NCBI GenBank assembly: GCA_918797485.1
Contig: CAKKNE010000001.1
Location: 5,208,001-5,272,000 of the forward strand
Direction of reading: 5' to 3'
From: Pelagomonas calceolata
Taxonomy: Eukaryota > Sar > Pelagophyceae > Pelagomonadales > Pelagomonadaceae
DNA: 64,000 nucleotides
Shown: in pieces, positions 5,956-16,883 of the stretch
How the letters are laid out: each line of letters starts with the position of its first letter
Position numbering within the stretch: the first letter of the stretch is position 1
Translations under genes and position numbers: made by a program
The notes under the pieces: model-generated
The model's database searches: none
Told to the model about the DNA's origin: nothing
Seen by the model: only the letters and a program-made list of their open reading frames with translations

Positions 5956-7359
5956 TCAGGCCGTCTTGCCTTTACAAACGCCGCGGCGGAGCATCTCCTT
6001 CTCGCGCGCGACGAGCGCGTCGGCGAGGCGGCCGTGCGCGGTCGTCGCCTCGGGTAGGACCGGGTAGCCCTCCGCCTGCGCCGCCGTCGCCGCGGCGAGC
6101 GCTCGCGTCGCGCGGTCCGCGTGCGCGGCGCTCGCGGGGCTCAGGGCCGCGTCGGGCGCGCAGCGGAGGAGATATGTGGCGTCGGCCTTGTTGTCGGCGC
6201 CCGCCGCGAGGGCTATTGAATTCAGCGCGGCGTCGGGGACCGCGTGCGCCGCGCCGCCGGCCGTCGCCACCATGCGCAGGAGTGCGCCGCGCCAGCGCGG
6301 CGGCGCGTTCGGCGGCGCCGGCGCGCGGGGCACTTTCCTTGAATCGAGGAAGCGCGCGAGGAGGGCCGCGAGCGGCGTCGCCGGCAGCGCCACGTCGACG
6401 GTCGCGGTGTCGGCGCCCTCGCGGAGCGACGGCGGCGGCACGAAGCCGCTGTGGAGCAGGAAGTTCGCCGCCGACCGGTCGCCGTAGTCCATGCGCACCT
6501 CCTCGCCACCAGCGACGCCCGTCGTCATCAACACCAGGGAACCGTCCTCGGCCAGCCGCGACGCGCCCGCGTCCTCGCCGTGGTTGCACATGTCCCAGAG
6601 CGGCACGAGCGCCAGCGCCCCGCCTAGCGAGTTCTGCCGCGTCTGCACGGCGCCCAGCGCCCAGCGCCACCTCTCATAATCCAACGACAAAGCGGACGAG
6701 GCCTCCTCGCCGAGACTTCTAGAAACCAACACAAAGGACCGCGCGGCCGCACACCGCGACATGCAGGCCCGCCGAAAGCTCGCCGAGCCCCGCAACCTCG
6801 CCACGTCCTCCCACGCCCAGAACGTCGGCACGTCATATGTAGAAGGCAGGCAGCGGACGTAGTGAATCCAGAACGAGTCGTCGGCGACGGCCTCGGCGCA
6901 CAACCTCAACGCGAGCGCGAGCGTCGCGTCGAGGTTGTGGGTCCTCGCGAAGGCCGCGACGCCCATCGGGTCGTTGTCAGTCGCGCGCAGGTGCAAGGCC
7001 GCGGGCACTGAGATGACGACGTCGTTCTCTTTTATATTTGATGCGGCGACGACGCGCGTCTGGCCGTCCTCAAAACTCTCAAGCTTGATGTGCTCGCACG
7101 CGCAGCCGTTGTCCTTCGCCCAGGCGTAGAGCGCCGCGCGTGACTCGTCCGTGGGCCCGGGTATGGGTGGGGACGTCCGCGGCAGCTTCGCGACGGCGCG
7201 CTCGAGCGTTTCCAGGAGTTTCACGGCGACGGCGTCGTCTCTTGTGGCTACGAGCCAGGCGGGTGTCGTCGCGGCCGCGTGGACGGCGTCCAAAGGGTCC
7301 ACCGGGGGCGGTGGCGGCTTGCGGGCGTGGGTGGCTTTGCTCCTTGATTTTTTACCCAT
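5956..7359 (-). CDS. SETD3-like SET-domain methyltransferase
   Basis: 467 residues. The SET domain starts near residue 104 (RVVAASNIKENDVVISVPAA), has the S-adenosylmethionine-binding Asn-His at 259-260 (LWDMCNHGED) and the catalytic-site Tyr segment at 291-306 (DYGDRSAANFLLHSGF). The long insert between them is typical of the class that includes Rubisco large-subunit methyltransferase, SETD3 (actin histidine) and SETD6. A Rubisco-substrate-binding-like helical C-terminus follows (residues 310-460). The N-terminus is Lys/Arg-rich (MGKKSRSKATHARK), without a plastid signal peptide, so a cytosolic or nuclear protein substrate is likelier than Rubisco. Which substrate it uses cannot be told from sequence alone. 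Confidence 0.85.
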   Translation of the reverse strand: MGKKSRSKATHARKPPPPPVDPLDAVHAAATTPAWLVATRDDAVAVKLLETLERAVAKLPRTSPPIPGPTDESRAALYAWAKDNGCACEHIKLESFEDGQTRVVAASNIKENDVVISVPAALHLRATDNDPMGVAAFARTHNLDATLALALRLCAEAVADDSFWIHYVRCLPSTYDVPTFWAWEDVARLRGSASFRRACMSRCAAARSFVLVSRSLGEEASSALSLDYERWRWALGAVQTRQNSLGGALALVPLWDMCNHGEDAGASRLAEDGSLVLMTTGVAGGEEVRMDYGDRSAANFLLHSGFVPPPSLREGADTATVDVALPATPLAALLARFLDSRKVPRAPAPPNAPPRWRGALLRMVATAGGAAHAVPDAALNSIALAAGADNKADATYLLRCAPDAALSPASAAHADRATRALAAATAAQAEGYPVLPEATTAHGRLADALVAREKEMLRRGVCKGKTA

Positions 7360-14711: not shown

Positions 14712-16211
14712 TTAAGCTACAATTTCCCCCACGACCTTGGACACATGACCCAAAGGCCCCAAGCCGTCGAACTCGAAGACGCCGTCCAGGATCAGCAGAT
14801 CCCTCAAGCCCGTGTAGAACAGCGCCCGCAAAGGTAGGAACGCGGCCACCACCACCCCATTGTAGAGCACGCGGTACTCCGCGCCCTGGAATAGTGCCTG
14901 CGGCCCCTCCTTCTTCGATATGGTTGAGACCGTCTCCAGCACATCCCGGATGCCCCCGGGCGTGTCCCCCGCTAAAACACGTGTCCGAGCGACGTCCAGC
15001 GGCGTCGTCGCGAGCGCCGCGACGATGGCCACGCCCACGGTCCTCGCCGTGAGCGCGTCGACGCCACCGTCCAGCGGCGCGATGTTGTTGAGCAGAGCGA
15101 TCGTGCCGACCCGCAGCAACACGTAGGGTACTTCGGAGGCGATCTGGGCCGGCGCTCGTTGTATCCCAAACTCCAGGCCCTCTATCGATTCTTTCCGGAA
15201 CCACGGGAGTATGGAAGTGTCCGGCTGGGAGACCTGGGCGCGCGTTGCCAAAACATCAGCCGGCGCTCTTACCGCAATGGCGGCGGTCTCCGCGACACCA
15301 ACGGTAGCGATAAATTGCGTTAAATCGGTAGGTACTAAAGGTACGCCCGTCAGCCGTCTCGTAATCTCGCGCGCGCCGTAATACGTGACCGCGTACGGCA
15401 CAGAGGCGGCCAAAGCGGGCCCGACGCCCGCATATAAATTCTTCAGCTGCCTCGGATCGGTTGATTTACCGGCCTGGACGCGGTTCTTCAGTGTTAATAC
15501 TGGATGTAATACAGCGGCCCTAGCCACTTCAGTTAAACCACCGGCCACGCAGGCGGATAACGCCAGTTCCGCGTTGGGCACCTTCCTATAAAATTCTCGG
15601 GGTGGCCGTAGGGCCCGCGGCCACCAGGGCGGCAGCCGCAGTTCTCTTAACTCATCACCAGTTATGGGATCGACGACGAATTCCGTTAATAAGCTTTCCT
15701 GGCGCTTGACGACCATGTTGTTCTTGGACAGGGCCTCGGTGACGTTGGCCTTGGCGAGCTGGGGCTTCTTCTTCTTCTTTTTTGTATCTGCAGCTTTTTT
15801 GGGCTTCGCGGCGGTCGCGTTCGCCGCCCGCGCCGCGGTCGCATTCGCTGGCCGCGTCGCAGTGGCGTTGGCGGCGCGCGTCGCCGTGGCGTTGGCTGGC
15901 CGCGTCGCGGTCGCATTCGCTGGCCGCGTTGCCGTCGCATTGGCCGGCCTTGTCGCGGTGGCGTTGGCCGGCCTCGGCGCGGTCGCGTTGGCCACTCGCG
16001 TCGCGGTCGCGTTCGTTCGCGGCACAGCGGGTGTCGGCGGCGCCTCAACGGGCGTTGCCGTGACTGGTGCAGCCAGCGCTACGGCCGGCGGCGTCAATAT
16101 GACAGCTCCGATGCTCCGAAGCGCACTCCGCCGCGTGTGGACCGGTTTCTTCGGTGGAAACTCCAGCGCTGATGTCCTCAGCAGCAAGACGAGCCATGGT
16201 CTAGCCCTCAT
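14712..16211 (-). CDS. Mitochondrial-carrier-family (SLC25) protein with plastid-type leader
   Basis: 499 residues from ATG 16211. Residues 1-18 are a signal peptide (MRARPWLVLLLRTSALEF), followed by a Lys/Arg-rich transit-like stretch, the bipartite layout that targets complex plastids. Residues about 70-145 repeat ANATATRP-type units, giving about a dozen N-A-T sequons, then a K-rich run. From about 215 the carrier fold begins (ACVAGGLTEVARAAVLHPVLTLKNRVQ), with a second half carrying PLDVARTRV, the degenerate PxD/E-x-x-[KR] carrier signature. SLC25 proteins exchange metabolites or nucleotides across organelle membranes; the substrate cannot be assigned. A plastid envelope location is inferred from the leader. 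Confidence 0.75.
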   Translation of the reverse strand: MRARPWLVLLLRTSALEFPPKKPVHTRRSALRSIGAVILTPPAVALAAPVTATPVEAPPTPAVPRTNATATRVANATAPRPANATATRPANATATRPANATATRPANATATRAANATATRPANATAARAANATAAKPKKAADTKKKKKKPQLAKANVTEALSKNNMVVKRQESLLTEFVVDPITGDELRELRLPPWWPRALRPPREFYRKVPNAELALSACVAGGLTEVARAAVLHPVLTLKNRVQAGKSTDPRQLKNLYAGVGPALAASVPYAVTYYGAREITRRLTGVPLVPTDLTQFIATVGVAETAAIAVRAPADVLATRAQVSQPDTSILPWFRKESIEGLEFGIQRAPAQIASEVPYVLLRVGTIALLNNIAPLDGGVDALTARTVGVAIVAALATTPLDVARTRVLAGDTPGGIRDVLETVSTISKKEGPQALFQGAEYRVLYNGVVVAAFLPLRALFYTGLRDLLILDGVFEFDGLGPLGHVSKVVGEIVA

Positions 16212-16285
16212 GGCCAGCACCAGTGAACCAGGCCCTCAGTGCTTGATTTGAAGGTCACAAAAAAAGCCGTAAAAATGCGCGGTTT

Positions 16286-16403: not shown

Positions 16404-16452
16404 AATGGTTTCACGAAATAATTACATTGCGCGACACTAGCGGGAAGCTGGA

Positions 16453-16491
16453 CTCGGCCGCGGCGCCCAAGGAAAGGCGCCGCGGCGTCAC
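16453..16491 (-). promoter_or_regulatory. SECIS-like selenocysteine insertion element
   Basis: On the minus strand, 21 nt past the stop at 16512, the RNA reads GUGAC, an 11-nt arm GCCGCGGCGCC, an 8-nt loop UUUCCUUG, the exact complementary arm GGCGCCGCGGC, then CGAG. This gives the tandem G-A/A-G quartet (UGAC opposite CGAG), an 11-bp helix II and an unpaired CC in the apical loop, a known variant of the usual AA. A weaker helix I can form between GCGGAGG and CTTCCCGC outside the quartet. It matches the family rules closely; a folding and SECIS-model search would confirm it. Confidence 0.7.
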
Positions 16492-16511
16492 GATCGCCTC
16501 CGCACCGCCGC

Positions 16512-16883
16512 CTAGCGCTCCATGCTCTCCGCCTTCGGCCCGCCCCCCGACTCCGAGGCCGCGACGGCGTGGTCGGCCGTCTTGTCGAGCGCGCTCTTGC
16601 AGAGCCGCTTGCTACAGCAGGCCGGGCAGAAGAAGTACAAGGGCAGGCACTCCTTTGCAGACTTCTTGCCGTCCACGGTGGAATAGACCATGAACGGCAG
16701 GCCGCACTTATGTTCGACGACGGCGCCGGGCAGCTTCTCGCGAATCGCGTCGGCGACGGGGTATCGGCCGCACTCCACCCAGCCGGCCGTGGGTCAGGTG
16801 TAGAGCTTCACCTGCTTCCCAGCACCCTCGGCGGCCACGGGCGCTCCGCCGTGGCACGACTGGCCTCCAGGGAGGAGGCCCAT
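16512..16883 (-). CDS. Candidate selenoprotein, SelW/Rdx-like thioredoxin fold
   Basis: 123 residues if the in-frame UGA at 16794-16796 is read as selenocysteine 30. The context KQVKLYT-U-PTAGW, then VADAIREKLPGAVVEHK and LPFMVYSTVDGKK, follows the strand-loop-helix-strand pattern of Rdx/SelW proteins, whose motif is CxxC or CxxU before G-W/Y. Here Sec would sit at the first Cys position and Ala at the second, which is unusual. The C-terminus adds a Cys cluster (FFCPACCSKRLCK). Without readthrough, the ORF would start only at a GTG after the UGA. A SECIS-like hairpin follows at once. Rdx proteins are thiol oxidoreductases. The start at 16883 is chosen because an earlier ATG (16898) is followed at once by another TGA. 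The alternative is a pseudogene. Confidence 0.65.

Follow-up and report, generated by a model that had tools for sequence, protein, structure and literature searches.

Coding Frame and 3′ Hairpin

The window, a 64-kb stretch of the Pelagomonas calceolata genome to which all unlabelled positions refer, contains on its minus strand a predicted coding sequence of 123 residues with a single in-frame UGA (16515–16883). From an ATG at 16883, the predicted Met1, the frame comprises 29 codons, the UGA (codon 30, 16796–16794, context VKLYT-U-PTAGW), 93 sense codons, and a TAG stop (16514–16512), which bears out the earlier claim, made from the sequence alone, that one UGA is followed by more than 90 coding-like residues. 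Codon 30 is designated a candidate Sec codon from the reading frame and from 33 homologous ORFs that begin downstream of it. Met1 is the sole in-frame ATG between the preceding in-frame stop and the UGA, and is the candidate start. Downstream of the UGA, the codon score of the frame is equalled by 3.4% of random stretches; that of residues 1–29 is modest, 26% of random stretches scoring as high. A conserved family domain, delimited in alignments A1, A7, and A9, covers residues 36–105, 3′ of the UGA (16569–16778, minus strand). Searches of the genome (32,445,274 bases in 8 contigs) found one copy of the gene.

Directly after the stop lies a SECIS-like hairpin. Its core (16451–16494, minus strand) is composed of GUGAC, an 11-bp helix II, the loop UUUCCUUG, and CGAG, and is identified by a covariance model and by two pattern searches, one strict and one genome-wide. 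GTGAC occupies 16491–16487, the two strands of the perfect 11-bp stem 16486–16476 and 16467–16457, the hairpin loop (TTTCCTTG) 16475–16468, and CGAG 16456–16453; the tandem G-A quartet (NTGA…GA, here GTGA/CGAG) and the stem are thus where the sequence-only reading had placed them. Minimum free energy folds add a helix I and an internal loop below the quartet, giving approximate limits of 16440–16503. RNA folding, which had been proposed as a check, yields −52.5 kcal/mol for the region, more stable than its shuffles (z −2.4; 2/200 as good).

On the same strand, a gene at 14715–16220 encodes a protein of the mitochondrial-carrier family (PF00153); its N terminus has an Ala-Asn-Ala-Thr-Ala-Thr-Arg-like repeat, the 24-bp repeat units of which lie at 15811–16013. 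The GC fraction of the window drops to 0.53–0.59 between 10001 and 14000; it is 0.69 immediately before this interval and 0.63 immediately after it.

UGA Decoding in the P. calceolata Genome

Pelagomonas is a relative of Aureococcus. The published genome of P. calceolata RCC100 comprises six nuclear contigs of 32.4 Mb, one plastid contig, and one mitochondrial contig, with a GC content of 63.6% (PMC9481584). The genome contains two tRNA-Sec genes with a TCA anticodon in a tandem cluster, a selD gene, and no fewer than 11 genes from known selenoprotein families with an in-frame UGA; the host decodes UGA as Sec. The two tRNA-Sec genes (G000:C5:5024950–5025614) have identical scores and belong to a tandem duplication that includes tRNA-Trp, in the order Trp-SeC-Val-Trp-SeC. 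The selD locus (G000:C1:5546014–5546931) lies within an 884-residue open frame and may be fused to another domain.

An in-frame TGA at the active site is present in two of the three Rdx matches of the genome (SelW and SelT) and in four of the five GPx matches. In five of nine PF13911 loci (L018–L021, L024) a TGA occurs 5′ of the HMM match, where the active site usually lies; because the match begins after the TGA, the family search listed these loci without internal stops. From the PF13911 matches together with characteristic motifs, we take the five to be four SelU-like proteins and one peroxiredoxin-like protein. Two glutaredoxin and two thioredoxin matches (L049, L059, G000:C3:1466408–1466602, and G000:C3:5063448–5063579) contain one in-frame TGA each and are possible further selenoproteins, judged by these codons.

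Ten of the 11 known-family genes have, 3′ of the TGA-bearing coding match, a hairpin of the form RTGAC/stem/loop/CGA with a stem of approximately 10–13 pairs, imperfect in L013, L019, L020, and L021. The same script found no such hairpin in any of six relatives without the TGA (L010, L017, L022, L023, L025, L026). After the stop of the GPx gene L015 there is a SECIS-shaped fold that contains a 3-nt bulge and in which AUGAU/GGAU replaces RUGAC/CGA; we regard it as a deviant SECIS.

The candidate element closely resembles the SECISs of the GPx genes L013 and L014, which share the form CGTGAC-GCCGC…GCGGC-CGA, a helix II of 10–12 bp, and a CC in the loop, and which lie 24 and 31 nt past a TAG stop, compared with 23 nt for the candidate. 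Measured from the first base of the stop to the quartet, the distance in nine known genes (L011–L014, L016, L018–L020, L024) is 20–53 nt. The candidate differs from the GPx pair in having UUU ahead of the CC, which places the CC 15 nt from the quartet. In SECISearch practice an AA or CC is sought 10–13 nt past NTGA (PMC2375036); the unpaired CC of the candidate falls outside this range, and another CC, at 10 nt, is paired. The description of the element as a textbook SECIS therefore holds for the GTGA/CGAG quartet and is slightly overstated for the loop. Among ten known SECISs of this genome, six have AA or CC at 10–13 nt and four do not (L013 at 14, L012 at 17, L019 at 9, and L018 with none between 9 and 17). 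A G preceding the quartet, the rule in Ostreococcus SECISs (PMC2375036), is found in the candidate and in four of the same ten.

Pattern and Covariance-Model Searches

A strict SECIS pattern (RTGAN, 10–13 unbroken pairs with G-U allowed, AA or CC in the first six loop bases, NGA) matched one site on both strands of the window, the candidate hairpin, and one site in total in 60 first-order Markov copies of the window. Allowing one mismatch and loops of at least 4 bases gave two window sites, the candidate and one at 7140 on the plus strand. On the control genes, a near-identical strict rule had a sensitivity of 6/11 and the one-mismatch rule 7/11, each with no false match among the six relatives. 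Four sites given by a relaxed script in 18 loci (L001 2145, L014 1754, L020 1571, L021 1640) were rejected, none reading RTGAC…CGA. Across the genome, the pattern TGACGCCGCN{8,34}GCGGCCGA matched 10 sites, and its backward control none; by eye, three of the 10 are hairpins of this design, those of GPx L014, GPx L013, and the candidate.

A SECIS covariance model had also been suggested as a check. MAFFT alignments of the SECIS cores misplaced the stems, and the GPx pair alone was usable; the model, R1, was accordingly built from these two P. calceolata elements with the candidate held out. In the window, R1 scored the candidate at 47.1 bits (nominal E 9.6e-9), a lead of 25 bits over the next match (22.1). 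Sixteen other window sites and the antisense of the candidate hairpin also had E <1, where approximately one was expected, and with these 17 matches the E-values of R1 must be read as optimistic. Among nine held-out known genes, R1 gave 17.7–28.1 bits for six (L012, L016, L018, L020, L021, L024) and 12.6 for L015, and did not list L011 or L019; loci without a known Sec gene scored up to 20.4, overlapping real SECISs. R1 does not part all real SECISs from background, and the candidate stands out by its unusually close likeness to the two GPx elements, whether by shared origin or convergence. The Rfam model SECIS_1 had no match in the window; genome-wide, where 132 of 249 candidates were scored, it found no known SECIS either, so its silence on the candidate is uninformative.

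A Protein Family Beyond the UGA

Three protein searches among 5.8 billion proteins returned 13, 23, and 33 clusters, with a union of 33; the worst E-value in the third was 4.8e-10. That search scored the 8000 candidates sharing most words. The search method takes proteins of limited length, so that any Cys form embedded in a longer protein would go undetected. The relatives are 45–129 residues long and range in identity to the window protein from 98% (a fragment) down to 31%. The sequence-only reading had proposed a search of homologs for a Cys or Sec at the UGA position. Homologs of the part after the UGA are plentiful, but none of the 33 reaches the UGA column, each beginning at or after column 32, and neither residue was seen there (start columns were read in alignments A1, A7, and A9 for 32 homologs and separately for P0011). 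Such truncation is expected if gene callers stop at the UGA. Residues 1–29 had no homolog among the 33 clusters.

Within alignment A9, Pro63 and Gly72 are invariant (21/21 rows) and Cys60 is present in 17/21; other cysteines, for example Cys79 and Cys95, are also common in the family. No Pfam family was matched at its cut-off by 16 members of A7, the precomputed Pfam column was empty for all 33 clusters, and four proteins had no NCBIfam match at cut-off. A Pfam match to Zn_ribbon_Elf1 (E 0.02–0.04) fell below the cut-off of that model and was set aside. Solved structures gave no credible match (best E 0.25 and 0.51), and no relatives were confirmed in viral contigs or GTDB genomes.

Alternative Readings of the UGA

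The same family bears on whether translation begins upstream of the UGA. The protein could instead begin 3′ of it, from Met65 or from a codon other than AUG around residue 36, so that the UGA would lie in a 5′ untranslated region or would close a short ORF upstream. All 33 homologous ORFs begin after the UGA, and in many distant members a Met near column 36–38 (A9) is possibly a true start. However, the first in-frame ATG of the window frame past the UGA is that of Met65, although residues 36–64 are as conserved as the rest, and these residues must therefore be translated from upstream or from a non-AUG codon. The alignment of P0020 starts at column 36, where it has no Met, and P0022 retains AGWV straight after the UGA position. 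Close members have their M at 36 or 43; ORF tables that accept GTG yield such starts after any stop, and the same rule applied to the window produces an 88-residue ORF beginning with GTG right after the UGA, of the same length as P0001–P0003. A downstream start would also leave the SECIS unexplained, and we consider it improbable.

Still less probable is an intron containing the UGA, or a sequencing error that created it, the real protein having no Sec. P. calceolata genes average 0.45 introns (PMC9481584). A mistake in one assembly could not shorten 33 independent database clusters at about the same point, and in either case the SECIS would be useless. A pseudogene or chance frame decaying beside a GC-rich hairpin, conceivable in a GC-rich genome with many hairpins and weaker R1 matches throughout, is the least credible reading of all, given a protein conserved down to its most distant aligned member and a hairpin so far above every other window match, with a single strict site in 60 Markov windows.

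Possible Relationship to the Rdx Fold

The sequence-only reading likened the protein to Rdx/SelW, with Sec at the first Cys position of the active site and Ala at the second. The Pfam Rdx model (PF10262) does not recognize the candidate, and the CxxC/CxxU motif of Rdx is absent, with U-P-T-A in its place. A profile comparison with three Rdx proteins of the genome aligned Sec30 to the first Cys, at P 0.06. A second set, which left out SelT and combined two Rdx proteins of the genome with two human sequences, scored 24.3–25.9 (P 0.0006–0.001) in the same register; 200 column-shuffled decoys reached at most 22.0 against the score of 24.3. Control profiles scored 15.2 (reversed Rdx), 13.3 (SelU), and 14.1 (GPx). 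For the part after residue 35 alone, the Rdx profile scored 24.1 against a decoy maximum of 20.1, with the register within one residue. The signal derives mainly from the human pair (23.4 alone), since the two Rdx proteins of the genome by themselves give 15.8.

By eye, Y-T-x-P-x-x-G-W in the candidate recalls a glutaredoxin motif, and the invariant Pro63 recalls a cis-Pro. In contrast to this impression, the glutaredoxin and thioredoxin profiles scored 15.4 and 16.2, equalled by 1–3 of 100 shuffled decoys, and the glutaredoxin alignment bypasses the Sec region; both were rejected as relatives, and the candidate is in this respect unlike glutaredoxin and thioredoxin selenoproteins.

An AlphaFold model of low confidence (pLDDT 46, pTM 0.34) contains a helix at 40–50, strands at 56–61 and 65–70, and helices at 88–94 and 96–111. 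This order, helix-strand-strand-helices, would fit the β-α-β-β-β-α order of Rdx, but at this confidence is no evidence alone. The profile alignment with the Rdx family (SelW, SelT, SelH, MIEN1/Rdx12), over 50 columns, would match Sec30 to the first Cys of CxxU and, after it, Gly-aromatic, helix, strand, and strand. The candidate departs from Rdx in having U-x-x-A for C-x-x-U and an additional common Cys in the C-terminal part. Rdx was the best of the five families compared, and with the first set and the Pfam model against it, the case for an Rdx-like fold is about evenly balanced.

Discussion

The gene very probably encodes a small selenoprotein of approximately 123 residues in which UGA codon 30 would be read as Sec. 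This assignment is strongly supported by the hold-out covariance model, the species-matched controls, and a family whose conservation continues past the UGA. In the mRNA, the predicted SECIS immediately 3′ of the TAG stop would direct Sec insertion at codon 30, in which tRNA-Sec would take part. Further factors of Sec insertion are SBP2, EFSec, and SPS.

Its product is probably an oxidoreductase of thioredoxin-like type, related to Rdx/SelW. Sec30, at the end of the predicted first strand, would occupy the first Cys position of the CxxU motif of Rdx, with Ala33 at the second. It would then act as a lone redox nucleophile without the usual neighboring thiol and, because Ala occupies the usual partner position, might be resolved by glutathione or by a distal Cys such as Cys60, Cys79, or Cys95. 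We more tentatively propose a Sec-only selenoprotein family, widespread in marine plankton relatives of Pelagomonas, with an Rdx-like domain in which the catalytic pair is turned round and a distal Cys or glutathione does the resolving; taken as a whole, this fuller picture is possible rather than probable.

A survey of algae counted 42 selenoprotein families and lists a family designated “Hypo” (PMC7539508). Its members and the candidate, compared by description only, are both hypothetical algal selenoproteins. The word stem “selen” does not occur in the main text of the P. calceolata genome paper (PMC9481584). The candidate family may already stand unnamed in a supplement. The Gobler 2013 algal survey, with its Aureococcus set, reportedly contains unnamed hypothetical selenoproteins.

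The family matched no Pfam or NCBIfam family at cut-off and is likely a selenium protein of a new kind, in a phytoplankton group that is abundant worldwide. As a family for which no Cys form was found, it would be a notable addition to those counted in that algal survey. Gene callers easily miss it and, as every database copy found starts after the UGA, its abundance in the ocean is hidden. The SECIS of the candidate gives a concrete signature with which the remaining selenoproteins of Pelagomonas can be sought, and the protein offers a testable case in which Sec would have no thiol beside it.
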